DNA of 64,000 nucleotides from a virus, in the IMG/VR virus record IMGVR_UViG_3300049440_000156, positions 1 to 64,000 of that record. One strand, given 5' to 3'. Below, one piece after another: positions 1 through 64,000 of this stretch (position 1 is the stretch's first letter; each line of letters opens with the position of its first letter). Both the position numbers and the translations under genes were made by a program. The notes under the pieces are model-generated. The model did not search any database. It saw only the letters and a program-made list of their open reading frames with translations, and was not told the DNA's origin.

Positions 1-199
1 GGAACCACGTTGGCACCCACCCCGGCGCGCTCGGATCGAACAGACTCAGGGCTTGCTCCTGGTTCGCGCAGTTCGGGTAGTCCTCGCCCGCCGTCAGCTC
101 CGGCAGCGGCACCTTGGGATCGAGCAGGAGTTCTATCGCCCAGTGGGGCTCGTTCTGCTGTTTCTCCAGTTGCGCGAGTTGTTCCTGTAACTCTGGCAT
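1..199 (-). CDS. Possible new gene start at the left edge, partial
   Basis: An open frame begins with ATG at 199 after a good Shine-Dalgarno (GGAGG, 5 nt spacer, seen as CCTCC at 205-209) and runs off the window. Its start MPELQEQLAQLEKQQ has normal protein composition. The frame of the upstream giant gene is also open here but turns Gly/Ala/Arg-rich, as shadow frames often do. The giant protein may therefore end just outside the window while this gene starts inside it, or a frameshift may join the two. No family was recognised. Confidence 0.4.
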   Translation of the reverse strand, partial: MPELQEQLAQLEKQQNEPHWAIELLLDPKVPLPELTAGEDYPNCANQEQALSLFDPSAPGWVPTWF

Positions 200-3100
200 G
201 CGAGCCTCCATCCGCCAACGGCTTTACTGCTGCGGCATATTCGGCCCAGTCTTTCGGCTGATTAGATTCTAGCCGAAGTATGGGTTCCTCTGCACCGGCA
301 ATTTTGCCCTTATCTACAACCATCAGGACCGAATCAACGGTCGTCCCGCGATGCACGTACGCCTCCGGAGGAGATTGGATCATCGCTCTCAGGGTGTGGG
401 TTTGATCGATCCACTTACGAAATCCTCCACTGCCTGGTTGCAAGATGGTTGTCGGCACGATTGCCACCAAGCGGCCACCCTGCGGCAGATCGCGCAGGTT
501 CTTAACCATGAAGCGCTCGGAGACATCGTTGAATCGGCCCCAGGGCGCAGGAACGTCTAGCGCTTTGTAACGGCCAGAACTGATCTTTCCCCAGGGTGGG
601 TTGGTAACAATCACGTCAGGCTTGAATTGGCTCTTGAGGTAGTCCTGCTGGGTGATGTGCTGGTAGCCGTTGGCCTTCAAAACATCGGCACGCCGCGGGT
701 CTAGCTCATTGACCATAATCTCGGCATCGGTGCGGATTGGCTCTACGAGGTTGCCGGTGCCAGCCGTTGGCTCAAGAACTGTATCGTCCGGCATAACGCC
801 AGTCGCGTAGGCTGCCGCTTCAGAAATCGGATGAGGCGTTGAGAACTGCTGCAGTTTGGTAATTTCAAGGGTTCGTGTGCGCTTGCCGATCTTCTCCTCG
901 ATGCCTGCCGCGTACTTGATGCGTTCGGCCAGCCCTTCCGGACGGCGATCTCTCATATAGCGGTTGGTTGCGCCCTCGATCGCGTCGTAGATGTCGTCAA
1001 TGTACTTTGCAGGATCGCCGCCAACCTCTTCCTTGGCCATTGCGCGGATCTCGCGCGGGTCTGACGGCAAAGTGCCTGCACTTAGGGCGTCCGTAAAGCG
1101 GTCAATGAGGGCAGGTACGCGGACTGCAAGGGTGTCTTTCTTGATGTCTGGAGCGGCTTGGTCTAGCTCGTCGAGTGGCGCCGAGTGAGGAATGGCTTCA
1201 TAGCTGCCACCTTCAGTTGGGACGATGTCGGCTTTGGTTATTTTGAATTGCGGTTTGGTAGCTTCACGTCCACCAACTTGCTGCCCTTTGGCAGCTTCTT
1301 CGCCCACTCGCTCAGGGAGGTCTCTGGACCCGCTACGGAGTCCGGCTGCCTTGCGCTGTTGCTTGCTTCCGAGGTGGGTGCCGTGCTCGGCGTTGTGCTC
1401 GGCTGCGGATTCTTCGTTTCCTGTGCCATGGCTTAAGCCTACACCCTTCTTTTCTCTGATTGTACCGTCTGGCGCTTCTGCTGTGAAGACTGCTTCCGCC
1501 AATTCTTTGTTCACCCGTTCTACGACTCGCGTAACAGCAGCCTTGTCCTTGGTGCGGAAAAGAAATTCATCTCCTGAGCGGTGGTAGACTTTGATGCTCC
1601 CACCTGGCTCCTTGGCCATAGCTTGCCGGAATGCTTCCCCGATTTTCGGCAACACAAGCCGGTCCACATTCTTTTTCCCCAGAATGGTATTGAATGGCTT
1701 GAAGTCGTCAACGTCGGCGTAGCCTACATGGGGATGGAGCCCTTCATCTTCATGGAATGCCCGGTAGTTTGGAAGTCCTGTGAGCTGGCTTGTGAGCAAC
1801 TCGTGTGCGCGCTCCTCCGGCGTCATGTGCTCGACACGCTTGCGCTCTGCGAGGTTCGTGCGGCGCTCAACCTTGTCCAATTCATCCAGCGGTGCGCTCA
1901 CGCCCGCCTGCTGCCCACCCAGCGGTATTGTCTCCTGGGTGCCGTCCTTCTTTGAGACGACGATTTCTTTGACAGGAACCTTCTGCCCTTCGAGGTGATT
2001 CCCTCCTTTATATTGCTCGGCAAATTCAGGCTTGACGTAGGCCAGGGTTACGTGTGGTTTGTACTCGGGGAAAGTATCCTCGTGGAAGTTGCCAGCCTTT
2101 TCCATCGCCTCGCGCAAGGCTTTTAGCTCTGGCGTTACTTCCAATCGCGCTATCACCGGCACGGCGCCGTCAGAATGTTCGCTTGGCGGGAAGGTGTCGG
2201 TTTTGCCGATCGGCACTTCAAACGGCTGTATCTCCGCTGCTGCGTTCCTGATTTTCTGGACTGCCTCAGGACTGTCGTCTTTTAATCCATAGCGCACAGT
2301 GACGTGTGGCTTATCTTCGCGTCCTTTGGCTGTGCCGCCGAAGTCGGTCGGCATCAGATGCTCGTCAGGAATGGCCGCTACTGCTGCCGAATGGGCTTTG
2401 GCGAGGTCGCTCTGTGGATCGATGTTGATCTGTGTCGATCCTTTCTCGAAGCCTTCGGGCACCTCTTCAATCCCGTTCCGCTGGCGGAATTTATCCATCG
2501 CCGCGTCGTGAATCTTTTTTGCTTCGGCAAATTGTTTCTCTTTCTCCGTGTGGTCTCCGCGTAACTCTGCTTCCCGCCCGGCCGTATAAAACTTGTGGCT
2601 ATCGTTGATCGTCTCCTGCACTTCTCTGGGAACGATCTGAACCTCGGCTGTCAGGCCATTACTCATCTGCACCTGAACGTTGGCGCTTGGGTATCCGGCC
2701 AGCTTCTCCCGTCCATTCAGGAATGCGTCTTCTACGCCAATGACCTTGAACTGCTTCTTTAACTCTGAGATGAGCTGGTCTTTTGCTTGCGGGGTGTCCG
2801 CTGCGATTTGCGCGGCCAGATAATCCGGTACAGTCTGCGGAGGCTTGTCGGCAAGGTCCACCTTCTCGTCAATACGCTCCAGTTCTTTCTGTGGACGTAC
2901 CCGGTCAAAGGTCGCCCCTTCCACGCCGGCAGAAATGTGGGATAGCCTGGTAGTCAGTTCGGGCGCTGCTTCTGATGCCAGACGCTCGTTCTGCATTACG
3001 TCGTCGGAGGGCTGTAGAACCGTGCGCCCTGATTCCGGCTCTTCTTTCCCGATCGCCGCAACATCCTCCTGCTTCACTGGCCCCGGTGGTTTGGCCAGGG

Positions 3101-4661
3101 CCACTGTGTCTTTCGGCGGCTCTTCTTTAGCGATAATTGCGGGTTGTTGCGCTGGATGGATGTCGGCTTCTGCTGCTACCTTTTTACCTGCCGCGGTATC
3201 TGACGTGAGCCCTTTACCGGCAGGAGGAGCACCAGAGATGGGAGCAACCGTAGTGGGTTGCTGCGTGGCCGCTGGCTGCTCAGTTGTAGCCTTTGCGGCT
3301 TTAGTCTGGGCCGCCTGCGCCTTGTCCACGCGGTCTACTTCATCGTTGATGAATTGCCCGGCGAGTTTAGACGCCTGTTTCTCGTTGTCAACGGTGTAAA
3401 TCTTGTGATCTGGCCCAACGAATGTTCCACGGCCCATCATCCACTTCGCCATGTTCGCGTGGGCTTCAGTCATCAGCGCCGGCCGTTGCGCCGGATCGGC
3501 TTTCATGATCGTGTCGCTGATGCCTTTGGCTATTTCCGGTGTCAGGTGCTGCGGTCCAAGATTAGGTGGTGGGGCTGGTGGCTGGGGCGTGGGCTGGAAA
3601 TCAGGATTGCCGGTATGCTGCTCAAACTCCGTCAGCAACTTGGCGGCTTCGCTGGACTCTGGAGCCGGTTGGCCATTGCGCGGGATGTTCACTTCAAATT
3701 GCGTGCCGCCGACCTTGATGCGACCAGAGAGGACATCAGGAGTTGTCGCTACACCAGCGCGGACTTTTCCGCCGAACACAGAAGCGCCTGAGAACTTTCC
3801 TTCTGGCGTTTCAACGCTTCCTGTTTTCAAGCCGGACGCTGTGCCTAGGAGGGATGGAAGAAAGAAAGAAGCAGTTCTTATTAACTCCTCATCTTCAGGC
3901 GATACGTGACTATGCACGGCAGAGCCAATGCCTTCGCTTGCCCCGACGCCAGCTCCATAACCAGCGATCACCGGCAGCGGGTTCAACATCGCCGACGCTG
4001 CGGCAGCCGGTTCCATCAGTTGACCGGCACCCTGGAGGGTTTCGGCTGCGCCGAGCATCCGTTGCCGCCTTTGGCGTTCTTGCTCTTGCGGCGACATCGT
4101 ACGCACCGGAGGACCCATCGGGTTATTCGGATCGACGTTATACGCCGGCTGATCATTCTCCTTGAATCGCGATAGGCCAGTGGCGACTGGTTCAACACCA
4201 GTCCATGCGTCAAATACAGGTATACGGTCAGCCTCAGGAACCAAAGGCCTCTGGCGAAACTCTCCGGTACGCGCATCGGCCTCGTAGGGAACGTCTAGTT
4301 GCGGATCGTGTGGCCGCCCCGCAGGCTCCGAAGGAGTAACACCGTTAACTCTGGTAGCTGCGCGCGTAGCTGCTGCTTCATCAGCCGGGCTTGGTGGCTG
4401 ATTGAAGGCTGCTTCCGCAAATGATGGGAACTGCGCGGCTGGTTTTGGAGCGTATGAAGGCGTAGGAAGAGATGGACGTGCGAGAGGAGGTGGGGCAGGC
4501 GCTGAAGCTGATTGCTGATCTAGGTCGTCGAGAGGCGCACTGACGGCGGATGAAGAAGGAGAGGATTGCTGATCGAGATCGTCAAGAGGCGCACTGACGG
4601 CGGATGAAGAAGGAGAGGATTGCTGATCGAGATCGTCAAGAGGCACCGAATACGTGGACAT
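1..4661 (-). CDS. Giant polyvalent protein: RelA/SpoT-like, 2H phosphoesterase, GGDEF-like and N6-methyltransferase domains (C-terminus off window)
   Basis: The frame is open from ATG 4661, one base after the previous gene's stop, to the left edge (about 1550 codons). Seen in order: three 18-residue N-terminal repeats with PLDDLDQQ; an Ala/Gly-rich hydrophobic stretch (about 200-240); a RelA/SpoT-like segment (about 620-695) with GYPSANVQVQMSNG and EVQIVP; two HxT motifs, HVTV (H786) and HVTLAY (H870), as in 2H phosphoesterases; a GGDEF-like domain (about 960-1090) with LTGLPNYRAF, DVDDFKPFN and SGDEF; and a methyltransferase with LEPTAGTGN and NPPWG (about 1295-1355). SAPLDELD recurs between the 2H, GGDEF and methyltransferase modules. 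Such domain mixtures are known as phage polyvalent proteins, thought to enter the host with the DNA and counter defences. Its place at the end of the virion operon fits that. Enzyme activities are inferred. Confidence 0.85.
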   Translation of the reverse strand, partial: MSTYSVPLDDLDQQSSPSSSAVSAPLDDLDQQSSPSSSAVSAPLDDLDQQSASAPAPPPLARPSLPTPSYAPKPAAQFPSFAEAAFNQPPSPADEAAATRAATRVNGVTPSEPAGRPHDPQLDVPYEADARTGEFRQRPLVPEADRIPVFDAWTGVEPVATGLSRFKENDQPAYNVDPNNPMGPPVRTMSPQEQERQRRQRMLGAAETLQGAGQLMEPAAAASAMLNPLPVIAGYGAGVGASEGIGSAVHSHVSPEDEELIRTASFFLPSLLGTASGLKTGSVETPEGKFSGASVFGGKVRAGVATTPDVLSGRIKVGGTQFEVNIPRNGQPAPESSEAAKLLTEFEQHTGNPDFQPTPQPPAPPPNLGPQHLTPEIAKGISDTIMKADPAQRPALMTEAHANMAKWMMGRGTFVGPDHKIYTVDNEKQASKLAGQFINDEVDRVDKAQAAQTKAAKATTEQPAATQQPTTVAPISGAPPAGKGLTSDTAAGKKVAAEADIHPAQQPAIIAKEEPPKDTVALAKPPGPVKQEDVAAIGKEEPESGRTVLQPSDDVMQNERLASEAAPELTTRLSHISAGVEGATFDRVRPQKELERIDEKVDLADKPPQTVPDYLAAQIAADTPQAKDQLISELKKQFKVIGVEDAFLNGREKLAGYPSANVQVQMSNGLTAEVQIVPREVQETINDSHKFYTAGREAELRGDHTEKEKQFAEAKKIHDAAMDKFRQRNGIEEVPEGFEKGSTQINIDPQSDLAKAHSAAVAAIPDEHLMPTDFGGTAKGREDKPHVTVRYGLKDDSPEAVQKIRNAAAEIQPFEVPIGKTDTFPPSEHSDGAVPVIARLEVTPELKALREAMEKAGNFHEDTFPEYKPHVTLAYVKPEFAEQYKGGNHLEGQKVPVKEIVVSKKDGTQETIPLGGQQAGVSAPLDELDKVERRTNLAERKRVEHMTPEERAHELLTSQLTGLPNYRAFHEDEGLHPHVGYADVDDFKPFNTILGKKNVDRLVLPKIGEAFRQAMAKEPGGSIKVYHRSGDEFLFRTKDKAAVTRVVERVNKELAEAVFTAEAPDGTIREKKGVGLSHGTGNEESAAEHNAEHGTHLGSKQQRKAAGLRSGSRDLPERVGEEAAKGQQVGGREATKPQFKITKADIVPTEGGSYEAIPHSAPLDELDQAAPDIKKDTLAVRVPALIDRFTDALSAGTLPSDPREIRAMAKEEVGGDPAKYIDDIYDAIEGATNRYMRDRRPEGLAERIKYAAGIEEKIGKRTRTLEITKLQQFSTPHPISEAAAYATGVMPDDTVLEPTAGTGNLVEPIRTDAEIMVNELDPRRADVLKANGYQHITQQDYLKSQFKPDVIVTNPPWGKISSGRYKALDVPAPWGRFNDVSERFMVKNLRDLPQGGRLVAIVPTTILQPGSGGFRKWIDQTHTLRAMIQSPPEAYVHRGTTVDSVLMVVDKGKIAGAEEPILRLESNQPKDWAEYAAAVKPLADGGSHARVTGTTRATGETAERAPLGDRTPARSQGAAAGADGGRGLPELREPGASPESVRSERAGVGANVV
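4511..4644. repeat. 54-bp tandem repeat encoding PLDDLDQQ units
   Basis: Near-identical units begin at 4511, 4565 and 4619, the last one partial. Each full unit encodes 18 residues at the N-terminus of the polyvalent protein, containing PLDDLDQQSSPSSSAVSA. The near identity of the DNA points to recent duplication. Confidence 0.9.
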
Positions 4662-6377
4662 TTAGAATGCTGCACGGACTTTCCCGTCTTTGTCTTTAAC
4701 GAAACCTTTGATCGTTTGGCCGTTCACCTTGTCGCCCACGTTGTACACCCTGCCGCCCGGAGTCTTGTGTTGCTTGTCGGAGATGGGCGTGATTTGTGGT
4801 TGTGCAGATGGCTGGACTCCAATCGTCGGCCTGCCCTTTCCGTCTGTTCCTGTGACGGTAGCCGTGGCGGGAGAGCCATCGTTGTTATGGGCTTCTATTC
4901 CCTGCACTGGCTGGCCTGGACGAACTGGCGCAGCAGCATTCGGAATGGCAGCCAGCGGACGGCCTTGCGAATCAGTGCTGGCAGGTACGGCAATTCCAGT
5001 GTCGCTCTGGACGTCTGGAATACCGCCGCCCTCTGGCTCTTTTACGGAAACTGGCTTGCCGGATTTGACCTGTGAGGACCACTGCTGCTTGCGGTTCTCA
5101 AATTCCGTGGTGCGCTGGTTGTAACCATCTTCAATGGTCTTATATTCAGCGCGCAGGGCATCATCAACCTTGCCGCCACCAGCGTTTTTGAAAGCTTCGG
5201 TCTTGTCCTTCCGCACCTGGTCGCGCTGCTTCTGATACCACTGGTCGGAGTACTTGTCGATCGCTGCCTGGTCTTTGAAGGTCGCGGCTAGACCTTTGCC
5301 TGCAGCTCGGGTTTTCTCGATATCCAGCCGTTGCTGCTCCATCCCAAGACGCTTTTCTTCCATGGCCAGACGACGCGCGAGTGTCGGATCATCCGGCAAC
5401 TTCCCATTGGCCAGATAGAGCTTACGGTCATCGCCTGCGAGTTGGAGCTTATCGGCGATCTTCGTTCTAGCGTTCAGTATCGCCGTTTCCTTGGCCTCTG
5501 GGGTTGTGGCGTCCTGAAGCTTCTTCTTTAAATCCTCCGTCGCCTCGTTATGCGCAGTACGCTCGTCCACGTTCTGTTGCTTCAGATCGCTGATGTCTTG
5601 GTTCTTTGCAACGTCGAACTGGTCTTTCCACACTCCACTTTTATCCTTGAACTCATCGCGCGCACGGTTATTCTCGTCCTCGAAGGATTTGATCTGCGCT
5701 GTGTCGGCAGCAGCTCCACGCTGACGTGCGGCTTCATCCTTAAAGTACTGACCACTGACAGCTCCAGCGCCGTAGTATCCAGGCGAACTCTTATCGCCAA
5801 AAGCACCTTCGAGTGGACCAGATATAGCCCCTGGCAGCCCGCCACGAATAAAACCTCTCGCCGAATCAAGAAATGCGCGTCCAATCCGCGCGCCCATGCT
5901 GGGCTTATATTGCGGCAGCGTTTGTCCGGTTGTTGGATCAACTTTCGGCGTGACGGCGCTCTTCGCCCGCAGGTCGGATTGAGCTGCGGCATAGCCTGGT
6001 GACATTGACGGCGCTTGCGGGGGCGCGCCAAGTTTTTCGAGGTTTGTTTGCGGTGCCTGTACTGTCTGCCCGGCTGCAGCGGCGAACTCTCCGAGATCCA
6101 TCGCCGCTTTCGAGGTCGATTGCGGTGGCACTGCTGGCGGAGGCGCTGGTGTCCCCATAGGATCGCGGTAGGCATTGCCCATTGACGCAGGAGTAGAGTC
6201 GTCTACGGGTTGCGGCGCCGTTGAACCGCCAGTGTCCCCACCAGACAAACTCGGATCAAGGTAGCGAGTTGACGGAGCTAGAGTTGGGTCTTCGTCGGCG
6301 TACGCTCTGCCCATGATGGGCTGTTCGTCGTCTTCGCGCTCGTCTTGTTCGTTGTCTACATCCGGCATGATAGGCAT
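4662..6377 (-). CDS. Gln/Pro-rich coiled-coil virion-associated protein, unknown function
   Basis: 571 residues. The first 120 are acidic, then Pro/Gly/Thr-rich. A Gly-rich patch near residues 170-210 could touch membrane. Residues about 215-440 are charged and predicted coiled coil. The C-terminus (VYNVGDKVNGQTIKGFV) looks like a small beta domain. It begins directly after the upstream gene's stop and is followed at once by the polyvalent gene, so it is probably translated with the internal or ejected virion proteins. No family recognised. Confidence 0.8.
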   Translation of the reverse strand: MPIMPDVDNEQDEREDDEQPIMGRAYADEDPTLAPSTRYLDPSLSGGDTGGSTAPQPVDDSTPASMGNAYRDPMGTPAPPPAVPPQSTSKAAMDLGEFAAAAGQTVQAPQTNLEKLGAPPQAPSMSPGYAAAQSDLRAKSAVTPKVDPTTGQTLPQYKPSMGARIGRAFLDSARGFIRGGLPGAISGPLEGAFGDKSSPGYYGAGAVSGQYFKDEAARQRGAAADTAQIKSFEDENNRARDEFKDKSGVWKDQFDVAKNQDISDLKQQNVDERTAHNEATEDLKKKLQDATTPEAKETAILNARTKIADKLQLAGDDRKLYLANGKLPDDPTLARRLAMEEKRLGMEQQRLDIEKTRAAGKGLAATFKDQAAIDKYSDQWYQKQRDQVRKDKTEAFKNAGGGKVDDALRAEYKTIEDGYNQRTTEFENRKQQWSSQVKSGKPVSVKEPEGGGIPDVQSDTGIAVPASTDSQGRPLAAIPNAAAPVRPGQPVQGIEAHNNDGSPATATVTGTDGKGRPTIGVQPSAQPQITPISDKQHKTPGGRVYNVGDKVNGQTIKGFVKDKDGKVRAAF

Positions 6378-6953
6378 TTAGGCTCCTGCCGCCCCTGTGG
6401 CTGCCTGGCCCGCCACTTTTGCTCCTTGATTTGATAGCCAATCCCAGAATCCAGGAGCTTGCGCTGCCGGGTTAGCTACACTTAGGCTATTGTTCGCCCC
6501 GCCGAGCGATGTTGCGTATTGCTGATTGCTCGCCGTCACCGGAAATTCTGAAGCGGTCAGTCCGGTCTGCTGATACCCTGTCTCACCGGCAATCCTCGCT
6601 GCATCCGATTTGGCCTGCGCATCCGATGCGGCCATCACCCCTTCTTGTTGCGTCTTCGCCAGGGTTGGCGCGAAGCTTCCCGTATTTTCGCCCGAGCGCT
6701 TCGATGTCATCTGCAGTTCGCTCTGGAGAGCGTTACTGCTGGCATTGGCTCCTGAAGCGTTGATCGTCTTCTGGTCCTGATCGAACTGTCCGCCCTTGGT
6801 GTAGGGGTCGTTGGCGTAATAGCTGCTCAACCGGGAATTGAAGGTATCGAGTCCGGCATTTGCACTCCCGAGCGCCGTCTGGGCATTCGATTGGTCGGTC
6901 TTTGAATTATCGATGCCCGTTTGGGCGATCTGTTTCTGCTGGTCTCTTGACAT
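6378..6953 (-). CDS. Small Ala/Ser/Gln-rich virion protein (ejection-protein-like)
   Basis: 191 residues, rich in Ala, Ser, Gln and Asn, mostly helical with a hydrophobic Gly/Ala-rich C-terminus (FWDWLSNQGAKVAGQ). The composition resembles small internal or ejection proteins of podophages, but there is no diagnostic motif. It abuts the following gene exactly and lies between a GNAT-like gene and the coiled-coil protein. Confidence 0.75.
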   Translation of the reverse strand: MSRDQQKQIAQTGIDNSKTDQSNAQTALGSANAGLDTFNSRLSSYYANDPYTKGGQFDQDQKTINASGANASSNALQSELQMTSKRSGENTGSFAPTLAKTQQEGVMAASDAQAKSDAARIAGETGYQQTGLTASEFPVTASNQQYATSLGGANNSLSVANPAAQAPGFWDWLSNQGAKVAGQAATGAAGA

Positions 6954-6958
6954 CGGTG

Positions 6959-7411
6959 CTACCTCAGTCTCCGGTTGTAGTGGATGAAACCAGTCTTTTT
7001 GAACTGCGCTGCCTTCAAGTACAGGCCAATGCGCCTGGCCGTTCTTGACGTCAGGAACATCAGCCCGCGAAACAGCAGCCGCGAGAGCCAGCCGTCAATC
7101 GCCGGCGGAACAAAGCAATGCAGGTAGCGGCAACCCTTGGCGCTGGCTGAGGCGAATACCGTCTTCTGGAACCCCCAAACCGCTTCCGCCGATTGCCTGT
7201 CTGTGCCGATCTCAACGTGCTCGATGCACATCTCTTCGTAGAAGGCTTTGACAATTACGCCGTCGCGCTCGACTACCCAATAACCAAGAATGGCTGGGTC
7301 GTCTACACCCGGCAGGTCCATCTCCATGCCGACATGTCTCTCTGTCTGCCGATGAAGCGGAAGGATGCGCGGCATGTCCTCAGGCGCCGCAGGACGAATA
7401 ACGTTCTTCAC
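6959..7411 (-). CDS. GNAT-like N-acetyltransferase domain protein
   Basis: 150 residues resembling the GNAT fold: an N-terminal IRPAAPEDMPRILPL strand-helix, a central WVVERDGVIVKAFYEE beta pair, and a C-terminal FKKTGFIHYNRRL typical of GNAT ends. Similar genes sit among head/tail genes of other podophages; their substrate is unknown. The start overlaps the preceding stop by 4 nt (ATGA). A copy of the 16-bp palindrome lies inside it at 7042-7057. Confidence 0.6.
   Translation of the reverse strand: MKNVIRPAAPEDMPRILPLHRQTERHVGMEMDLPGVDDPAILGYWVVERDGVIVKAFYEEMCIEHVEIGTDRQSAEAVWGFQKTVFASASAKGCRYLHCFVPPAIDGWLSRLLFRGLMFLTSRTARRIGLYLKAAQFKKTGFIHYNRRLR
7042..7057. promoter_or_regulatory. 16-bp palindrome site, TTCTTGACGTCAGGAA
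   Basis: One mismatch to TTCCWGACGTCWGGAA. It lies inside the GNAT-like coding sequence, about 85 bp upstream of the next gene start at 6953. Confidence 0.65.
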
Positions 7412-11941: not shown

Positions 11942-13279
11942 TTACCCGTGGAGCTCCAGTTCCGTCGCCATGGAACTCTGTGGCTCATTCTTCAGGCGCA
12001 AGAGGTCCTGTTGGGCTTCAGCCATCGTGTGTCCTTCCATGGTCATGGCCCAGACTTCAGCATCGCCGTTTGAGTTGGGAAAGAAGCGCGCATAGAGTCG
12101 CCGTAGTTGACTCTCTGCCGCGGTCGAAAATTCCTCTTCGTAATCCACGCGCCCGGGACGGATAAGGGCTGGGTCGAGGCGGTCTCGATGATTGGTGGTC
12201 ATCAGAACAATTGAGCCTTCGCTTGCCATAAACCCGTCAAGCGCATTCAGTATTCCGGTCAGTGTCAACCCGGAGCCTGGAGCATCGTCTTCTTTAGTGC
12301 TGCGCTTACGTACCGCGAAAGCAGCATCCACATCTTCCAGAACCATGAAACTGTTTGGCGGAATCTCACTGAGTAGACACGCGAATCTCTCATCGTTCAT
12401 GTCTTCGCCAGCCAGGCTCAGAATGTAGAGATTCATCTTCAGTTCGCCGGCCAGTGCGCCGATGATCGAGGTTTTCCCGCTTCCCGGAGTGCCGTGGAAG
12501 AGCATGCCCAAGTGGTAAGGAATACCCATTTCCTGATACCACAAGCGATCTGCAATAAAGTCTTTAAGTCGCTGAAGGATGGCCTCAGCAACCCCATCGG
12601 GAAGAATGACGCTTTCCATCTTGCGCGGGGCAAAAGTCCGCAGCCGACGCCACGAGGAATACACGCCGACAAATGCGCTGATCTTCTTGGCCTGAAACGC
12701 CACTGCACGCCCAATTACTTCAGCCAGCAGCCCACGCAGAATGTCCTGTGACCGGCCAAAAATGCGGAGCGTGTAATTCTCTTCCTTGAAGCGAAAATGG
12801 CTGCTATTGCTGGATTTGTTCGTGTTGTTATCGACAGGCGCACCACCGTCGCCGCGATCAAGCCAAAGCAATCTTCCTTTGTACCTGAAGAAGTGTTGGC
12901 CTTTTGCCGGAGAAAGAATCAGCTTCGGCTGCTTGGCCTCGTCGTCAAAAGAGCATGAGGTAGCACAAGGAACGGCTGGGGCATCGGAGCCGATTTGATT
13001 ACTTCCAACTTCGTAATTCGCCACCGTCGTTGCCAGTAAGCGCCTAGTCTTTCGGCTGTACGGATGATCGTTCAACCAGAGGGTTATCCAGTCAAACAGC
13101 GGGTCATTGTTCATCACCGTGACCGTGACAATGAACTGATCTTTGATCTTCCCCCAGATTCTCCCGGGTAGACTTCGAGCCAACGCGATAATCGAGGCGG
13201 TAAACGTAAGCAAGAGACCGCCCGAGACGAACGGATTTGCCAGTTGGCGCCAAACCAGATCAAATAAGTGTGTCAACAT
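11942..13279 (-). CDS. BCS1-like membrane-anchored AAA+ ATPase
   Basis: 445 residues. The N-terminus has a hydrophobic segment (GGLLLTFTASIIALARSL) followed by a BCS1-N-like beta domain with FDWITLWLNDHPYSRKTRRL. The AAA+ core has Walker A GTPGSGKTS, Walker B FMVLEDVDAAF, TTNHRDRLDPALIRPGRVD with sensor 1 and arginine fingers, and a C-terminal lid. In mitochondria BCS1 moves a folded protein across a membrane; bacterial relatives are poorly known. A member inside a phage head-tail operon is unusual and may unfold, insert or translocate a virion or host protein. A strong terminator and a palindrome copy lie just before its start. Confidence 0.9.
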   Translation of the reverse strand: MLTHLFDLVWRQLANPFVSGGLLLTFTASIIALARSLPGRIWGKIKDQFIVTVTVMNNDPLFDWITLWLNDHPYSRKTRRLLATTVANYEVGSNQIGSDAPAVPCATSCSFDDEAKQPKLILSPAKGQHFFRYKGRLLWLDRGDGGAPVDNNTNKSSNSSHFRFKEENYTLRIFGRSQDILRGLLAEVIGRAVAFQAKKISAFVGVYSSWRRLRTFAPRKMESVILPDGVAEAILQRLKDFIADRLWYQEMGIPYHLGMLFHGTPGSGKTSIIGALAGELKMNLYILSLAGEDMNDERFACLLSEIPPNSFMVLEDVDAAFAVRKRSTKEDDAPGSGLTLTGILNALDGFMASEGSIVLMTTNHRDRLDPALIRPGRVDYEEEFSTAAESQLRRLYARFFPNSNGDAEVWAMTMEGHTMAEAQQDLLRLKNEPQSSMATELELHG

Positions 13280-14622: not shown

Positions 14623-15093
14623 TTAGCCGGGTCCAGCGTTGTCCCTCTTTCGATCTTGGTAGTACTTACGACAATAGTCTGCCCTGCAGATTCGGCAGAG
14701 TCGCTTACGCCCATTCCATGTGTATACGGAAGGATCGTCTAAGCTATGGCCGTTCTTACAAAACTTTTTTCTGGAATTAACAGTTGCTGGCGAATCACTA
14801 CGTTCTTTGTTGACTAGGGGAGTGACGGCCTCTAAGTGCTGCGGATTCACACAGCAAGGCATCTTGCACTTGTGGTCAATCTCCATTCCATCTGGAATCG
14901 GGCCACGAAACATCAGATATGACGCACGATGTGCCGACAACCTAATGATTCGTCCATCGCTGTCAGGATCAGATGCTATCAGCCCATAGCCGATACCTCT
15001 TAAGTACCCTAACCAAAGCCAGCACCCTGTGTTGGGCTCAGGAACATACAGCGCGTTGAATCTATCAATCATCGGATAGAACGGTTTGGACAT
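14623..15093 (-). CDS. HNH homing-type endonuclease
   Basis: 156 residues: TGCWLWLGYLRGIGYG N-terminal motif, then the HNH core EIDHKCKMPCCVNPQHLEAVTP, and a C-terminal Cys region (CKNGHSL, CRICRADY) that may bind zinc. HNH free-standing genes inserted between phage structural genes usually act as mobile elements. Related in pattern to the HNH gene at 31812. Confidence 0.85.
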   Translation of the reverse strand: MSKPFYPMIDRFNALYVPEPNTGCWLWLGYLRGIGYGLIASDPDSDGRIIRLSAHRASYLMFRGPIPDGMEIDHKCKMPCCVNPQHLEAVTPLVNKERSDSPATVNSRKKFCKNGHSLDDPSVYTWNGRKRLCRICRADYCRKYYQDRKRDNAGPG

Positions 15094-19892: not shown

Positions 19893-19926
19893 ATAGAAAG
19901 GCGCGATCTCCTAGGAAGACCGCGCC
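19891..19926 (-). terminator. Rho-independent terminator before the scaffold gene
   Basis: On the minus strand GGCGCGGTCTTCC pairs with GGAGATCGCGCC (one bulge, one wobble), then TTTCTATTT. It ends the transcript from the gene upstream. Confidence 0.85.
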
Positions 19927-20262
19927 TGTCGTCGTGCGCTTTGTTTGGGTGTATCTTGCTAAAACTTTCCGCAGGATGAGCAGCAACCCGCGTGGCTATC
20001 TGCCATTGGTGGGACGCCTGATTCCAGTTATCGCGGCCTCAAGCTATGGAATCGATGTTTGCGTCTGCTGGCTATCTCAGCCTATGCCCGCGACCGTTCT
20101 GGCCTTTCGCCTCTTCGGAGCTTCCCAGCAGCCCTCACGGGATTACTCTGCTATTCCACTCCGCATCTCTAGATCGACTTTTAGCGGACCGGACCAGATT
20201 ACGCGCTGCGTTCCGCCGGCTAGTCGTCCAACCGGTACGTCTGCTTTTTGCGGAAACTTGGG
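19927..20262. other. 336-bp stretch without a convincing gene
   Basis: No minus-strand frame is convincing here. A plus-strand frame exists but lacks a good ribosome site and overlaps the genes on both sides. In such a packed genome a gap of this size could hold a structured RNA or a decayed gene; I see no known RNA motif. Confidence 0.5.
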
Positions 20263-28526: not shown

Positions 28527-28967
28527 ATGAAAGCCCTGTTCTACCGCTCGCTTTTTGTTTTAACTTCCTGCCTTGTCTACCGCCTACAAGGGCGTCTCGG
28601 ACTTGGCTACTGGATACCAGGATCATGGGAGGGTGCAGTAACTTTTGTCGGTATGATCGCATTTTCAGTATCCGTAACCTGCGGGATATTCTTGACGGCT
28701 AAACCTACCATTGCTTTCGTTGGTCATCACTGGAGACTTGCGCTGAGCTCTGTCGCAATCGTTATCGTTGGGACGGCCTTGATGTATTTTTGGCCTAAGC
28801 ATGTGGTTAAGCCACAGATAGAAGTTATTCAGCCTTCGCCATCGCCGATTCCAGAAACATCAGTCTCCGTACCACTCGATGAACTGGATCAAGTTCCTCC
28901 AAAAAAGAAAGATCAAAACGCAATAAAACCACCGCCGGGATATGTGCTCGACTCGAAAACCAAATGA
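28527..28967 (+). CDS. Plus-strand membrane protein carrying the VPLDELDQ motif
   Basis: 146 residues with two or three membrane segments (VTFVGMIAFSVSVTCGIFL; LALSSVAIVIVGTALMYF) and a cytosolic Pro/Lys tail. The tail holds SVPLDELDQVPPKKK, nearly the same as the repeated S[AV]PLD[DE]LDQ motif in the polyvalent protein at 1-4661. No Shine-Dalgarno is visible; a TAAAAT box lies just upstream, so a leaderless message is possible. First gene of a plus-strand island inside minus-strand genes. Confidence 0.7.
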   Translation: MKALFYRSLFVLTSCLVYRLQGRLGLGYWIPGSWEGAVTFVGMIAFSVSVTCGIFLTAKPTIAFVGHHWRLALSSVAIVIVGTALMYFWPKHVVKPQIEVIQPSPSPIPETSVSVPLDELDQVPPKKKDQNAIKPPPGYVLDSKTK

Positions 28968-57331: not shown

Positions 57332-57619
57332 CTAACTTGCCTTCAACTTCAGGTCTTCGGCTTCTGCAAAACGTCGCAGAGCCATGCGTACTACATCTAC
57401 AGCTTTCTTGAGGCCGTGTTTCTTCATCCCGGCTTTAATAATTGCGTCTTCCTCGGCAGTCGGAACGAGCCGAACATTCACAAGCTGCTTTTCGTCTTTG
57501 TTGGCCTTTTGTGGCACACGCAGAATGTAGTCCATTTTGGCCTTTTGTGTCAAGCGAAAAAGTTGAACTTTATTTGGTGCGTTTTCAGCTACTTGTAATT
57601 TAGAGATATTTTTCCTCAT
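57332..57619 (-). CDS. Ribbon-helix-helix-like regulator
   Basis: 95 residues. QLVNVRLVPTAEEDAIIKAG and HGLKKAVDVVRMALRRFAEA fit a CopG/Arc-like RHH. It overlaps the integrase stop by ATGA and lies next to the attP-like region, so it could act as a recombination directionality factor or regulator. Confidence 0.6.
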   Translation of the reverse strand: MRKNISKLQVAENAPNKVQLFRLTQKAKMDYILRVPQKANKDEKQLVNVRLVPTAEEDAIIKAGMKKHGLKKAVDVVRMALRRFAEAEDLKLKAS

Positions 57620-58794
57620 GCCTGCTTGTCCTCCTTGTCCTTGGGCTCATGCGCTACCGCCATGGCCTTTCGCAGGAGTTCATGGTCAGGTTTGTAGTAC
57701 CGCCGCTGCATGGATTCGCTCACGTGGCCAAACAGTTTTTTGGCTGTATGAATTGAGACCTTGCCGCTGGCCAGGGTGCGCGTGATCTTGGTCACCCTGC
57801 AGTCATAGATGCGGAAATCCTTGATCCGCCTATATAGTTCAGGATTGGCCAAAGCGACTTCCTTCTTGAAGATGTTCCATGACCGCTTGATGCTTGACAT
57901 GGGACGGTTGAGATTTGTGTGGGCATTCTTGGCCCGTGGCTGCAGAGGAAGGACGTATTCTTCCGGCTGGTTGCCGCCCATTTCCTTCCATCGTTCAAGC
58001 AGCCACTTCATTGACTCCAGCGCCTCGGCGATGAGCGGAACCTGGCGCTCGCGTTCCGAATTCTTTGCGCCTTCAACGACTTCAAATATCGCCTCTGCCA
58101 GGTTCACGTCCTGGCGCTTTATGTGTCTGATTTCCCCGAATCCGCAGCCGGTCTGAAACATGAGCCGCAGCAGATGAGCCAGCAATTTGCGCCGGCGCGT
58201 AAAGGCCAGCACCAATAGCGCTTCTTCATCCTCCTTGGTGATCGACCGCCCGGACCCGCGCTTATCGATTGGCAGTGGCTCGTAACGCTCCGCGATCGGC
58301 TCCCACACCCCGGCTTCATGCATTACCTGGTGGAGTGTAGAGAGTTCGATGTTGATCCGCTGATTGCCGGCCGTTTCCGTCCGCCAGTCCTGATAGGCCC
58401 GAACGTTGCCAATATGAATAGTGGCGAGTGTTATGCCATGGAAGAAGAGATTAAGAGTCCTGATGCATTGCTCGTAGTCTTTGACTGTACGAGGTTTGAG
58501 TGAGCGAGAATGCTCCTTTAACCATCGTGGTGCAGCGTCTTCAAACGGCAATTGGGCGAGTGGCGTCACGTCCATGGCCTGCCTCCGCGCATCTTCACAT
58601 GCCGGGCAGGGGAACCCAGGCCGATGAATATGTATGTTTGCCTGATGGTTTGTGTCTGATATCAGGCATCTCCTAGAACGGTAATTTACCGTAGATTTGC
58701 AGGTTTTTTTATTAATAACTTTATTATCTTCAGGCTGGTAGATTACTTTAGTAACCCCTGAAGACAGGCTTCGAGTAGCCGCTGATGATGACAT
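57616..58794 (-). CDS. Tyrosine integrase with altered catalytic motifs
   Basis: 392 residues from ATG 58794 (AAGGA upstream; longer frame rejected as non-coding). Core-binding region (WLKEHSRSLKPRTVKDYEQ) and catalytic domain. The box I motif reads FQTGCGFGEIRHIKRQDV where active integrases usually have TGxR, and box II reads YDCR in place of HxLR; LFGH and RRYYKPD (His and Tyr) are kept. It may be weakened or use nearby arginines. It lies divergent from the plus-strand regulator. Confidence 0.85.
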   Translation of the reverse strand: MSSSAATRSLSSGVTKVIYQPEDNKVINKKTCKSTVNYRSRRCLISDTNHQANIHIHRPGFPCPACEDARRQAMDVTPLAQLPFEDAAPRWLKEHSRSLKPRTVKDYEQCIRTLNLFFHGITLATIHIGNVRAYQDWRTETAGNQRINIELSTLHQVMHEAGVWEPIAERYEPLPIDKRGSGRSITKEDEEALLVLAFTRRRKLLAHLLRLMFQTGCGFGEIRHIKRQDVNLAEAIFEVVEGAKNSERERQVPLIAEALESMKWLLERWKEMGGNQPEEYVLPLQPRAKNAHTNLNRPMSSIKRSWNIFKKEVALANPELYRRIKDFRIYDCRVTKITRTLASGKVSIHTAKKLFGHVSESMQRRYYKPDHELLRKAMAVAHEPKDKEDKQA

Positions 58795-58864
58795 TTTGAT
58801 TTTCCTTGAAGTATGAATTTGAATTGCGGGGCCGGTATGAATTGGAGCAAGCTTATGAACTCGC

Positions 58865-58900
58865 TTGACAATGTATATACGAAGTATTACTTTGTCAAAC
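58865..58900 (+). promoter_or_regulatory. Promoter/operator between integrase and plus-strand regulator
   Basis: TTGACA (58865-58870), 17 bp, TACTTT (58888-58893), then the ATG at 58901 only 7 bp later, so the message would be nearly leaderless. Inverted arms TTGACAA (58865) and TTGTCAA (58892), and a GTATATAC palindrome (58873-58880) between, suggest an operator. Confidence 0.55.
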
Positions 58901-59089
58901 ATGGTAAGACAAAAAGAGACACGCAAAAAAAAGACGGCCCGCGGCCTGGCGCTGCGGTTCATTGGCAACGAGGAATCAATGCTGGCCGACCTGAAGCATA
59001 AATACCCGGAGATGGACGACAGTAAGCTGCTGCGCCAAGCGCTCCGGGAAAAATGGGAGCGCGAGATGGGCAAGAGAGAGAGCAAATAA
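58901..59089 (+). CDS. Plus-strand RHH-type DNA-binding protein (candidate lysogeny regulator)
   Basis: 62 residues, basic start MVRQKETRKKKTARG then ALRFIGNEESMLADLKHKYP and SKLLRQALREKWEREM, an Arc/CopG-like RHH. It is divergent from the integrase and sits on an operator-like promoter, the usual place for a lysogeny switch protein. Confidence 0.6.
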   Translation: MVRQKETRKKKTARGLALRFIGNEESMLADLKHKYPEMDDSKLLRQALREKWEREMGKRESK

Positions 59090-60013: not shown

Positions 60014-61156
60014 CTACCGTCTCCGCATCCTGCGCATCGCCGTCTTGCTCATCGGCACCGGTTGGTCCTGTCTCTGCTGGTCATATATGGCTTCTTCGTA
60101 TCTGGCTGCGCGTGAGGTGATGTCGTCCATTGGGATATGGGCGATGGCTTCAAGGGCTAGTTCATGTGCGGTCTTCTGGGAGGGCTCAGGAAGAGACATC
60201 ACTAGATACTTCGTTGCGTCCGTGGCGTGATTGTTTTTGTCGATGATCTCTTCGGCCGGGTTCTGGCTCATCAATTGCGTGGCGCTTAGTTTCTTCTTGC
60301 GCGTTTGTAGCAGCTCCCAAAGAAGGTTTGGGCAGTCCCAATTGTGCAACCCAGGCTGCGGCTTATCTTCATAGTTTCTGCATACGATGCGGAGGCTTGG
60401 TTTGCGGAACCGGCTTTCAACTTCTTCCCTCTGCTCTGCGCTCATGTCTTCCAGTTCGCGGTCAGACGGTCCTAAATTAGCCCAATGCCCGGAAAGCATC
60501 CGCTGCGCGAATGAAATATCGGAGCGATCGCCAAAGAACTGAGTGAAGAGAGCGATGCCGTTTTCTACATAAAGGTCATTGTAGGACTTCGGCGCTTTCC
60601 GGTCGGACTGCTGATTGGTATCCGGAAAGATGCTTGGATCGGCGTAGCAGTTGCGGATGCGACGAACATCCTCCATTTGTTTGATGGTTTCCGAGTGCTG
60701 CCAGATTTGCTTGCCTGGCATGTAGTACTCGCCGCACATATAGATGCAGCCCACGAAGTCATGGTAGGAGCGCTCTAGCGATGTGGGATTGACTGCCCCA
60801 TGATCGAATCCAGCTTCAATTCTCCAGCGCGCGTCGGGCCGCCACATCGGATCTGTAATTACGATTTTCTTCCAATGCGAAAGCAGGGTATCTGCAAACA
60901 CCAACTCACCTCCGCCGGCGCGGTCCTGGATTTCCTGTTCCCGGTCCCATGCGCCCTGTGAGCTATACTTTGGCCGTCTCGCCAGCTTCCACGCAGGGTT
61001 AACGCTCGGATCGCGGTCGGGATGGGCCGAATAGTGCAACGTCACTACGGGCAGGTTTCCATCTTTGATGCGCACATGGAGCCCGCGCATAACTTCTACC
61101 TTGGTGCGCGGTGCCAGCGTTCTGGCCAATTTAAGGGCATCAGCAATTTGCCCCAT
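60014..61156 (-). CDS. terL: Terminase large subunit, nuclease half
   Basis: 380 residues. RNase-H-like nuclease acids: AGFDHGAVNPTS, NCYADPSIFPDT and NHATDATKYLVM. N-terminal part VVTLHYSAHPDRDP normally lies between ATPase and nuclease in one protein. The ATG follows the ATPase gene's TGA by one base in another frame, with GGAAGG upstream, so the enzyme is split. It cuts concatemeric DNA during packaging. Confidence 0.9.
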   Translation of the reverse strand: MGQIADALKLARTLAPRTKVEVMRGLHVRIKDGNLPVVTLHYSAHPDRDPSVNPAWKLARRPKYSSQGAWDREQEIQDRAGGGELVFADTLLSHWKKIVITDPMWRPDARWRIEAGFDHGAVNPTSLERSYHDFVGCIYMCGEYYMPGKQIWQHSETIKQMEDVRRIRNCYADPSIFPDTNQQSDRKAPKSYNDLYVENGIALFTQFFGDRSDISFAQRMLSGHWANLGPSDRELEDMSAEQREEVESRFRKPSLRIVCRNYEDKPQPGLHNWDCPNLLWELLQTRKKKLSATQLMSQNPAEEIIDKNNHATDATKYLVMSLPEPSQKTAHELALEAIAHIPMDDITSRAARYEEAIYDQQRQDQPVPMSKTAMRRMRRR

Positions 61157-61157
61157 A

Positions 61158-61943
61158 TCAACCTTCCACGTTCAAAATTGCATCATTTTTAAAATCGCTG
61201 TACCAGCCCGGGCCGGCACTCGAATTAAAGATGATCTTCTGTGTGCCGGCCGCAAGAACTGCGTCGTAGCACTCACCGGCATCCGCCTGGAAAGCCGATT
61301 CATCGTTCAGATATCCCCATGGGTGGTACAACCGGATCTTGTTGCCAGCATCTCCCTTGCCTCCGGGAATGCCGAGTATCTTCGATCCGTTGGCAAACTC
61401 CAGCACCAAGTCTGTCTGTCTATCGATCGCCTTGACCAGCGGGTAAGCCTCTTGCAGAAAGAGGGGCTGGCTGCGGTAAAGCTGCTTGGCGTACCCGACC
61501 AACTCAATGACCTTCAACTCCGTCAAAGTCTGGAATATTTGCAGGCGGTATGGTTCGCGCATCGCTTCCCATGTCAGGTAGGCTACGCATGCCCATGAAG
61601 CCAGCAAGTCGCGGCTCTTCTCGATGAGTACGATAGGTTCCTGCTGGAAGATATCAAAGAGATGGGGAAGGTAGGGCAGGTCTGGAAAGGGTTCGTTCGG
61701 TTGACGCCCCTGCTCTTTCCAGTAGGGGTTGAACGTCTTTGTGCAATTGCGCGCCCAGTGATAAGGTTCGCGCATAGCCTCTTCCACCTTTGAGGCATTC
61801 GCCTGCAGGTGCAGTTTGAGGCGCTTCCGCTCACATAATTGTAGAAGGGCCTCCCGGCGCAATTCCGAATCGGGATGCGAATCGCTCGGGGACGGTTCCG
61901 TCTTTTGCAAATTGTTCCAGTTCACTGTCGGTAAATCCTTCAA
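61158..61943 (-). CDS. terL: Terminase large subunit, ATPase half
   Basis: 261 residues. Walker A-like EKSRDLLASW, Walker B GYLNDESA with catalytic Glu, and coupling motif FNSSAGPGWYSDF, all of TerL. It ends exactly between ATPase and nuclease domains. The TTG at 61943 lacks a clear ribosome site; GTG 61925 with AAGGA upstream is an alternative. It overlaps the small subunit gene by about 110 nt. Confidence 0.88.
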   Translation of the reverse strand: MKDLPTVNWNNLQKTEPSPSDSHPDSELRREALLQLCERKRLKLHLQANASKVEEAMREPYHWARNCTKTFNPYWKEQGRQPNEPFPDLPYLPHLFDIFQQEPIVLIEKSRDLLASWACVAYLTWEAMREPYRLQIFQTLTELKVIELVGYAKQLYRSQPLFLQEAYPLVKAIDRQTDLVLEFANGSKILGIPGGKGDAGNKIRLYHPWGYLNDESAFQADAGECYDAVLAAGTQKIIFNSSAGPGWYSDFKNDAILNVEG

Positions 61944-62448
61944 ATTTGTCTGGGTTCTGCGCGCCGATCTTCATGCCAAGAATTTCTGACAGTCCGAGCG
62001 CCGCCCGCACCTGCGCGTTCATGTTCCCGTTGGTCAGGACGTTCGGCATATTGGCCTGTGTCCAGAGCAAGTGCATCACATCGGCCTTAGTGACAGCACG
62101 CCGCTTGCCCAGCTCCTTGGCTTCTGCTTCGGCCGCTTTTAGCGCGGCGTTGGCCAACAGGCTCTGATACTCAGCCATTTCCTTCTTTACTAATGGCCGT
62201 TTCATCAACATGCAGCCCTTGACGTCAGGATTCTTGTCGTTTGGATAGGCTATCTGTGCGGCCTGGGTCTGCGTCTTTCCTGCCTTCAGTTCCTCGATGA
62301 ACTTCCGCAACGCCGGCGTCCACTTCGGTCCTGGCTTGGGGCCGCCCTTCTTCGCTAATTTGTGATCTCCATCATGCTCGAACTTAAGGGTGCAATTCGG
62401 ATACGGGCAATCATCTCTTGTTTTCTTTTTCTTCTTCTTGAACGCCAC
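61831..62448 (-). CDS. terS: Terminase small subunit with zinc finger
   Basis: 205 residues. A C2H2-like CPYPNCTLKFEHDGDH near the N-terminus, HTH region (AGKTQTQAAQIAYPND), long coiled helices (EYQSLLANAALKAAEAEAK) and an acidic C-terminal end. Position directly before the terminase ATPase identifies it; it would recognise packaging-site DNA. Confidence 0.8.
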   Translation of the reverse strand: MAFKKKKKKTRDDCPYPNCTLKFEHDGDHKLAKKGGPKPGPKWTPALRKFIEELKAGKTQTQAAQIAYPNDKNPDVKGCMLMKRPLVKKEMAEYQSLLANAALKAAEAEAKELGKRRAVTKADVMHLLWTQANMPNVLTNGNMNAQVRAALGLSEILGMKIGAQNPDKFEGFTDSELEQFAKDGTVPERFASRFGIAPGGPSTIM

Positions 62449-62458
62449 AACATCACCT

Positions 62459-64000
62459 TCAGTGTTTCTTCTGTTCCTTTTTCTCGTTGATGCCGATCAT
62501 CTTCAACAAACTGTCCATCGCCTTTTCGGCATTCGAGTCTTTGCTTTGCCTCATCCAGGGTTGCAGCGGGATGGGTACGGCGCCCTCGCCATGGCTCTTC
62601 AGTTTGTCGGCCAGGGATTCATGTTTCTTGTGGAAGTGCGGATCTTCGTTTTTGAAGACTGCTGACACTGGCGGACTCACACGGTTCTGCAGGAACGTCT
62701 TCGGGTCGGTGGCCGCGTCCATGACGTCGCCCTGGACGGTGCGTAGATGGTATTCCTTGCCGTCATGGACGACGCTGAAGGGCTTGTCCCAATGCGGGTC
62801 TTTGTCCGACATCTCGTTAATGATGCGTGCTGCTGTGTAGAGCACTGCCGCTCCGAGCATGAGAGCTACGAGTTGCTCCCGGCCGTATTTGGTGCCGGCT
62901 TGCGCCACAAACCGCGCGCGGGCTTCCGTGAAGTCTGGAGCCATCAGGAACAGCCGCAACGTGTCCTGTAGCGTCTTGTTGCGCCCCAGCAGGCGGTAAT
63001 TGAGGCCTCCGAATGCCGCGTTGGCCTGGCTGGCCGTCAGGAATTGTAGTTGGTCTTCGCTTAGTTCGGGATAGCGCTTCCGGTTGCGTTCTAGTGCCAC
63101 TTTGGCCATCTGCATCTTCAACCGCGGCATGTAATCGCGGAAGAGATAATCGACGTAAGTCCTGTAAAGCGGCCCGATGCCTGGTGTTTTCGTTACCAGT
63201 CCACCAGAAGATAGTCCCTCACCGAAAGCTTCCATTGCGTCGTAGTGCGCCACCATCAGGCCATGATCGACCAATCCTGATTGCACAGGATCGTTCAGAT
63301 CCAGCTTCGGCATGTGTCTGGGCCAGACTTTGTGTTCCAGTGCGTGGATACCCAACGTCGTTTGATGAAAGACCGAGAACGATAGGACAAAGCTCTTGAT
63401 CTCTGCTGCTGTGTCGAGTGCAAACGCTCCAGGCCTGACGGTCTTGTCGCCGATGGTGATCTGGTAGCGACGCAGAGCCGACGTGCTCAGGTTGTTCTTG
63501 AGCTTCTGGTGAATCTCTGGATGCACCAGGGCATCACCCTGCACAAAAACATTCTTGCCGTCCACGTTGCCGGCCCACTTCCAGCCACGCAGAGCAGGAT
63601 GGTCAATCGATTTGTAGTCGGCAAATTCCTCTCCGGCTTTGATGTTCGGCTTAATCACATACGCTGGCTGCTCTTCGCCTATCTCTTTGGCGCTGGCCCA
63701 GCTCGTCGCAACCAGCGGTCGCCCGTCAGAGGCTTCTCCGCCCATAAGGCTCTCGATGTACGCTCGCGCTGCCAGAGCTTCTCGTAGGGACCGCTCGTGT
63801 ACAGACGTCAGGAACCCAACGTCCTTGTCCTTCGGCGTGAAGCCCAACTGCTCCGCGTCGAAGTAGGTCGGCAAGCTACGTTTCTTGCTGAAGCTGGGCT
63901 TGGTCACTAGCGTGTTGAAATTCATCTCCGCGCGGATTCGGGCTGCAAACTTTGGTTTGTCGGCATAGACGTGCTGGATATAGTTCTCTACGCCCGCCTC
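62459..64000 (-). CDS. C-terminal part of a polyvalent-type large protein (5' end off window)
   Basis: The frame is open to the right edge; the ATG at 63925 is internal because coding-like sequence (EAGVENYIQHVYADKPKFAA) precedes it. More than 510 residues. Features: SFVLSFSVFHQTTLGIHAL, YVDYLFRDYMPRLKMQ, LEFT-type helices and a hydrophobic EQLVALMLGAAVLYTAARII near the end, a basic C-terminus. It resembles the membrane-associated C-terminal domains (LPD38-like, from memory) at the end of phage polyvalent proteins. It precedes the terminase genes. Confidence 0.7.
   Translation of the reverse strand, partial: EAGVENYIQHVYADKPKFAARIRAEMNFNTLVTKPSFSKKRSLPTYFDAEQLGFTPKDKDVGFLTSVHERSLREALAARAYIESLMGGEASDGRPLVATSWASAKEIGEEQPAYVIKPNIKAGEEFADYKSIDHPALRGWKWAGNVDGKNVFVQGDALVHPEIHQKLKNNLSTSALRRYQITIGDKTVRPGAFALDTAAEIKSFVLSFSVFHQTTLGIHALEHKVWPRHMPKLDLNDPVQSGLVDHGLMVAHYDAMEAFGEGLSSGGLVTKTPGIGPLYRTYVDYLFRDYMPRLKMQMAKVALERNRKRYPELSEDQLQFLTASQANAAFGGLNYRLLGRNKTLQDTLRLFLMAPDFTEARARFVAQAGTKYGREQLVALMLGAAVLYTAARIINEMSDKDPHWDKPFSVVHDGKEYHLRTVQGDVMDAATDPKTFLQNRVSPPVSAVFKNEDPHFHKKHESLADKLKSHGEGAVPIPLQPWMRQSKDSNAEKAMDSLLKMIGINEKKEQKKH

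Follow-up and report, generated by a model that had tools for sequence, protein, structure and literature searches.

The giant gene and its neighbourhood

The window, by which we mean the whole stretch of 64,000 nucleotides analysed here, begins with a minus-strand frame (3..4661) that stays open for 1,553 amino acids and is only the N-terminal part of a larger open reading frame (ORF). The virus record containing the window is 67,704 bp long, and its terminal 127 bp repeat its first 127 bp, which was read as circularity. When translation was continued across the circular junction (window 4661→1, then record 67577→62459), a single ORF of 3,259 aa was obtained, with no stop. Its C-terminal 513 codons occupy 62459..64000 of the window, also on the minus strand, and its middle, including a Strawberry-notch helicase, is placed by this read-through at record 64001–67577, beyond the window. 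Seven further distinct giant proteins from viral contigs and one from an Acidobacteriaceae MAG served as relatives, making nine with the window protein.

An end repeat of 127 bp has the size typical of assembly k-mer overlaps, and the 3,259-aa ORF could in principle be a chimera created at the contig ends. This is highly improbable. No stop was met in frame through the junction, and the order methyltransferase (MTase) to helicase was also present within one ORF, away from contig ends, in the relatives L005 and L015, by which a chimeric assembly of the giant ORF was ruled out. L015 moreover has RelA, GGDEF, MTase and helicase together in a single junction-free frame, and the join is therefore no artefact.

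The gene directly upstream of the giant gene (4662..6377, minus strand) encodes a 571-aa presumed virion protein that gave no family match. Directly downstream is a presumed small terminase (61831..62448, minus strand), assigned by position only, followed by a large terminase in two adjacent minus-strand ORFs (60014..61943), with the ATPase part at 61158–61943 and the second part at 60014–61156. The same split ORF sizes were seen, by position and size, in L006 (13907–15840, plus strand) and L063 (11026–12895, plus strand), which suggests that the terminase is genuinely split and not the product of a sequencing error. The large terminase close downstream puts the giant gene in the virion-gene neighbourhood typical of polyvalent proteins. 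An integrase gene (57616..59085, minus strand; phrog_1, 1.5e-33) makes the phage probably temperate, and the nearest match in a bacterial genome lay in an Acidobacteriaceae MAG, at a locus resembling a prophage. The source is probably a temperate soil phage with a host among the Acidobacteria, family Acidobacteriaceae. The window also encodes, on the minus strand, a BCS1-like AAA+ ATPase (11942–13279; Pfam BCS1_N 1e-28, AAA 3e-16; phrog_7485 2.5e-79) and, among the structural genes, two HNH endonuclease ORFs (14623–15093 and 31812–32315), possibly homing endonucleases.

Enzyme modules and their shuffling among relatives

The preliminary description of this DNA had placed RelA/SpoT-like, 2H phosphoesterase, GGDEF-like and methyltransferase signatures in one uninterrupted frame of a polyvalent protein. 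The open frame, Pfam, AF2/Foldseek and sequence motifs all bear this out, and the co-occurrence of the four modules is not a chance result. Polyvalent proteins hold 2–15 domains of disparate activity in one polypeptide, as does the 3,259-aa protein, and the designation is further supported by the virion-gene neighbourhood. The four modules listed earlier were correct, but the list overlooked the Strawberry-notch helicase and the peptide tags described below.

The three nucleotide modules, all encoded on the minus strand, were examined with Pfam and with a template-free AF2 model of aa 555–1160, built from 12 sequences, with a pLDDT of about 90 within domains, which was compared with solved structures by Foldseek. 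The model gave the RelA/SpoT, 2H and GGDEF folds, the outcome that the preliminary description had proposed to check by structure prediction. For the N-terminal backbone, residues 110–455, the structure model was of low confidence (pLDDT 50).

The 2H phosphoesterase (aa 735–918; 1908..2459) was recognised by Pfam (2_5_RNA_ligase2, 1.4e-13 at aa 782–879) and retains both HxT motifs (HVTV...HVTL), so that fold and motifs agree with the 2H class. Its segment of the model matched Usb1 and the penguinpox cGAMP PDE (E ~5e-6), and also a plant CPDase. By sequence, the nearest PDB match was again the penguinpox cGAMP PDE (0.0024), and NCBIfam returned RNA 2′,3′-cyclic phosphodiesterase weakly (8.9e-5). 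The link to the anti-CBASS protein Acb1 drawn in the preliminary description proved weak. The Pfam Acb1 model scored 21.0 bits against a cut-off of 27, and membership of that family was rejected; the relatives L005 and L012 scored 15.6 and 24.1 bits.

The GGDEF-like cyclase (aa 935–1120; 1302..1859) gave a Pfam value of 0.01, under the Pfam cut-off, and three close homologues passed it with 30, 38 and 31.6 bits (cut-off 23.8). Foldseek matched the segment to the solved diguanylate cyclases PleD and DgcB (E ~1e-6), DgcB being also the nearest solved GGDEF by sequence. The first-strand Asp lies in ADVDDFK, and SGDEF replaces GGDEF, a variant that fits the [GS]G[DE]EF loop of GGDEF cyclases; the motifs are conserved in A10. 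The paralogues in L008, L009 and L012 are more divergent and carry KGDEF.

The RelA/SpoT-like synthetase core (aa 591–683; 2613..2891) likewise fell under its Pfam cut-off (0.011), and the homologue L015 passed it narrowly (27.2 bits against 27). Foldseek matched Rel (Bsu), SpoT and SAS2 structures with E 5e-5 to 8e-5. The catalytic Asp, Glu and G-loop Tyr are present as D613, E673 and Y657 (D59, E119 and Y103 of the segment) and are invariant in three homologues; from an alignment by hand, we take D613, Y657 and E673 to occupy the places of RelSeq D264, Y308 and E323. The canonical His of the G-loop is replaced by Asn, and the Arg of EIQIRT by Val. Catalytic residues, whose absence had been named as grounds for dismissing the modules, are therefore retained at the core of the active sites, but two of the canonical RelA/SpoT positions are lost.

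A DarB-like N6-adenine methyltransferase (aa 1246–1467; 261..926, minus strand) was recognised from its motifs (STP, EPTAGTG, NPPW) and by Pfam (N6_Mtase 8.9e-5, Eco57I 2.3e-5), and a Strawberry-notch SF2 helicase follows in the second half of the giant protein (Helicase_C_4, 4e-25). A gamma-class N6-MTase with a TP motif and NPP[YFW], followed by an SF2 helicase, is the arrangement of the DarB-type dyad. Pfam models found no match in the stretch N-terminal of the MTase, the place of LPD36 in such dyads. No Pfam match to a metallopeptidase domain was found in the window protein; L006 has an HEIAH motif.

The relatives have the N-terminal backbone or single modules in common, and the remainder is shuffled. 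L005 combines RelA, 2H, MTase and helicase, with an intein-like insertion; L015 combines RelA, GGDEF, MTase and helicase; L006, L009 and L012 each have 2H and GGDEF; L008 has GGDEF as its only nucleotide module; and L013 has GGDEF, a lytic transglycosylase and an MTase-helicase, the last called by eye. At the MAG locus the RelA-like domain is a separate protein of 459 aa, encoded between the giant gene and the terminase. All pairwise combinations of the three nucleotide domains thus occur among homologues in other phages, and all three together, among the nine giant proteins, in the window protein only.

Two observations concern other domains of these proteins. In the giant ORF of L005 (IMGVR 3300047090_000102) the intein-like insertion (CVPAGTKIETPSGPVPIEQLHIGDSVWGF...LLVHNC) lies at the DExH site of the Strawberry-notch helicase. 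Segments that by eye look of ADP-ribosyltransferase type (FYHGT / WFGxSKVV...VYHGT) are present in L012 (about aa 780–950) and L009 (about aa 1560–1890), and one also in L062 (Tunturiibacter phage Tunturi_5 gp321).

Peptide tags on giant and separate proteins

A short peptide recurs along the window protein, each copy encoded on the minus strand. Three copies, found as sequence repeats, stand in tandem at the N-terminus (SVPLDDLDQ, aa 5–13, 4623..4649; SAPLDDLDQ, aa 23–31, 4569..4595; SAPLDDLDQ, aa 41–49, 4515..4541). A fourth (SAPLDELDK, aa 922–930, 1872..1898) lies in a low-confidence linker right before the GGDEF module, and a fifth (SAPLDELDQ, aa 1160–1168, 1158..1184) precedes the MTase module. 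Synonymous codons differ between the copies, indicating that the peptide is what selection acts on; a mobile DNA repeat as the origin of the tags was ruled out by the same differences.

The phenomenon was noticed and scored in the same nine proteins, which are partly related (L006, L008 and L009 have an internal cassette in common). The N-terminal tandem repeat was significant in seven of them (p ≤ 0.007; p = 0.050 and 0.086 in the other two). Recurrence of a protein's own motif past residue 90 was also significant in seven (p ≤ 0.011), by shuffles that do not keep linker composition, and involved six different motifs. It failed this test in the remaining two, L005 and L009, the internal linker copy of L009 being of the motif type of another phage. 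The N-terminal tags of L015 are VVSVDDL/VVSADDL, recurring as VVDVDQL and VVHVDEL; those of L012 are PVVFSDQDI/PITFGEDEI, recurring as PKVFTENDI and PQTFHESEI. L013 has PVELDPSEI, L006 and L008 have APDLVSEFE with PDLVAEHE, and L063 has SYALSEVEE/SYSADQVEE with EFRADEVEE and EFAAHEVEE.

A better control than the shuffles is the cross-phage matrix, in which each protein was scored with the motifs of other phages. Scores were at or near background outside two exceptions, namely within the L006/L008/L009 group and for the L015 motif in L013, which scored slightly above L015's own best internal copy. The matrix shows different motif types, and one universal tag sequence was ruled out. Motif recurrence was not found in the giant proteins of ZX1 and NVP1211.

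The tag of the window phage is also carried by a separate protein. A plus-strand ORF of 146 aa with two predicted TM segments (28527..28967) has SVPLDELDQ (28866–28892) in its C-terminal tail. This match scores 40, and the best unrelated one after it in the record reaches 23. A 138-aa membrane protein of the L012 phage (plus strand) ends in PVVFEERDI, that phage's own tag. Both membrane proteins are encoded in the same position, between the same two kinds of tail-fibre-like gene, and their sequences do not align. A membrane-protein tag was thus seen in only two of eight virus records, no tagged carrier being found in the other six, and no homologue of the 146-aa protein was found in the eight records or in viral contigs.

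The 571-aa neighbour has a different N-terminal repeat (IMGRAYADEDP / SMGNAYRDPMG), which makes one capsid address in common too simple a picture. A second tag, [ST][MLI]GQRL, was seen in three phages, G002, G003 and G004. The protein encoded upstream of the giant one has it in repeated form close to the N-terminus, and further copies occur in small, separately encoded proteins of each phage. Small lysine-rich proteins with KKKTMGQR[LM][MI]G near or at the C-terminus are encoded on the plus strand at 6778–7147 in G002, 15359–15571 in G003 and about 19904–20137 in G004.

A limited search of open-access papers found no account of such tags, and a phage-specific tag that recurs between modules and is also borne by a separately encoded membrane protein seems not to have been described.

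Possible function and known systems

The explanation we favour is that the giant protein is a virion-packaged, ejected polyvalent protein with docking tags and enzyme modules, accompanied by a tagged membrane protein that acts as competitor or recruiter. We regard the case for it as evenly balanced. The single ORF, the folds, the retained catalytic residues, the domain shuffling and the tags are observed; that the protein is packaged and ejected, that its domains are active and on which substrates, and what the tags do, we infer. The tandem SAPLDDLDQ tags at the N-terminus would dock the giant protein into the procapsid, and the copies between modules would be the same address, brought in with or retained by each captured effector cassette. 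Once the protein is ejected, its MTase–Strawberry-notch helicase part would move along the entering DNA, marking it against restriction. The 2H domain may remove a cyclic or 2′-5′/2′-3′ linked nucleotide, which could be an alarm signal of the host or RNA ends. Purine-nucleotide messengers made by the RelA/SpoT and GGDEF domains may shift the physiology of the host or vie with its own signals. The tagged membrane protein could compete for or recruit the binding partner of the tag, as decoy or recruiter, and in a prophage-bearing cell could exclude superinfecting relatives. By analogy, the H66 virion homologue, the P1 DarB capsid signal and the precedent of P22 SieA, all described below, may be counted as support. 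Against this explanation are the RelA/SpoT and GGDEF scores under the Pfam cut-offs, a RelA/SpoT domain without the canonical His and Arg, the absence of recurrence in L005, L009 and H66, and a membrane tag in two of eight records only.

The tag is most likely a docking or packaging address, with a cleavage site or a self-association motif as the alternatives. A phage or host protease that cuts the inter-domain tags would release each enzyme inside the cell. The inter-domain copies do sit in linkers where domains meet, with very low pLDDT for the copy before GGDEF, and the tag varies by phage as would a site co-evolving with its protease. In the available part of Iyer et al. 2017 (PMC5512222), processing that frees the enzymes in the cell is an established proposal for zincin-bearing polyvalent proteins. 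The giant protein has no Pfam peptidase match, so another protease would be needed, and the genes scanned included no recognisable prohead protease. Further, the three tandem copies in the first 50 residues separate no domain, and the tag of the membrane protein sits near its C-terminus. We therefore consider cleavage doubtful. We think it unlikely that the tag, as a homotypic or scaffold-binding element, serves only to put together the ejection apparatus and is unconnected with packaging and superinfection exclusion. In favour of this reading, one peptide occurs on two different proteins of one phage, and [ST][MLI]GQRL is common to the upstream protein and small proteins in G002, G003 and G004.

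A further question is whether the nucleotide modules form a counter-defence set at all. The 2H domain might instead be an RNase or RNA-end enzyme (Usb1/ThpR-like), with RelA/SpoT and GGDEF tuning host growth or lifestyle, or some modules might be inactive passengers. Matches to the 2H fold include Usb1 alongside the viral cGAMP PDE, the NCBIfam match is to an RNA enzyme, Acb1 is under its cut-off, and the GGDEF paralogues with KGDEF are divergent. On the other side, the nearest PDB sequence match of the 2H domain is the poxvirus enzyme, and the catalytic motifs of 2H and GGDEF are retained in close homologues, which speaks against passengers. This alternative is a real contender, falling a little short of an even chance.

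Returning to the docking address, we tentatively propose a wider form of it, which we think less likely than not. Each phage would have a private peptide address, repeated at the N-terminus of the giant protein, placed before captured effectors and, in some phages, present on a membrane protein. It would govern the loading or docking of cargo and enable the membrane protein to recognise incoming cargo of its own kind or to stop it, and [ST][MLI]GQRL would be a second address, by which in three phages small proteins are tied to another presumed virion protein. If the modules are active, one ejected protein would unite anti-restriction with the making and destroying of nucleotide signals. The tags matter more than the modules, for they open to sequence analysis the questions of how multi-enzyme cargo is loaded in phages, of how effector cassettes are swapped without loss of the address, and perhaps of how prophages exclude close relatives. 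With an address readable from sequence, ejected effectors could be identified in phages generally.

Several known systems share parts of this arrangement. P1 DarB, which typifies the MTase-helicase module, is like the window protein a polyvalent protein with an N-terminal element, a capsid signal in DarB and the tags here; its first 30 residues were shown by experiment to target the capsid (PMC9024508). The available part of that paper does not report the signal as repeated or inter-domain and describes no RelA/SpoT, 2H or GGDEF domain. In capsid-targeted cargo of the T4 IP and P1 DarB type an N-terminal peptide is both necessary and sufficient for packaging; the likeness of the window protein to such cargo lies in where its tag stands and in its repetition. 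Pseudomonas phage H66 gp60 (3,787 aa) is a homologue of the MTase part (30% identity), and its GenBank note gives its presence in the virion as verified by mass spectrometry. H66 gp60, grouped here with the PLxRFG-domain proteins (NF032893), resembles the window protein in coming from a temperate phage and in an N-terminal tandem KPWEEF...KPWEEF; the KPWEEF tag showed no internal recurrence and was not found in other H66 proteins, and the PLxRFG domain was not found in the window protein. P22 SieA is a prophage membrane protein that acts on the ejection proteins of related phages in superinfection exclusion (PMC10883804). No shared tag peptide is reported for it in the available part of that paper, and an exclusion role for the 146-aa protein is by inference only. 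Acb1 and the poxvirus cGAMP PDE are, like the window 2H domain, viral proteins of 2H fold with two HxT motifs; the window domain differs from Acb1 in its Pfam score under the cut-off and in sitting within a giant protein of the ejected kind. Our search of the open-access literature found no paper linking Acb1 with polyvalent proteins, and none linking RelA/SpoT, GGDEF and 2H in phage.

The closest comparison is with the polyvalent proteins of Iyer et al. 2017. According to the available part of PMC5512222, these are also giant, encoded beside virion genes, and equipped with an MTase and a SWI2/SNF2-type helicase, for which a Strawberry-notch variant is noted. 2H, RelA/SpoT, GGDEF and MTase-helicase modules are all described there, RelA/SpoT mainly from Spirochaete and epsilonproteobacterial (pro)phages, and it is proposed that in conflict with the host 2H may destroy signalling nucleotides and RelA and GGDEF make them. 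As all four module types and their signalling roles were already in that paper, the earlier claim of a new kind of counter-defence effector was too strong. The same part of the text makes no mention of a recurring inter-domain tag such as that of the window protein. The module types and the ideas on counter-signalling are thus known, and what is new here is the combination of three nucleotide modules in one chain, in which the window protein differs from the polyvalent proteins described there.
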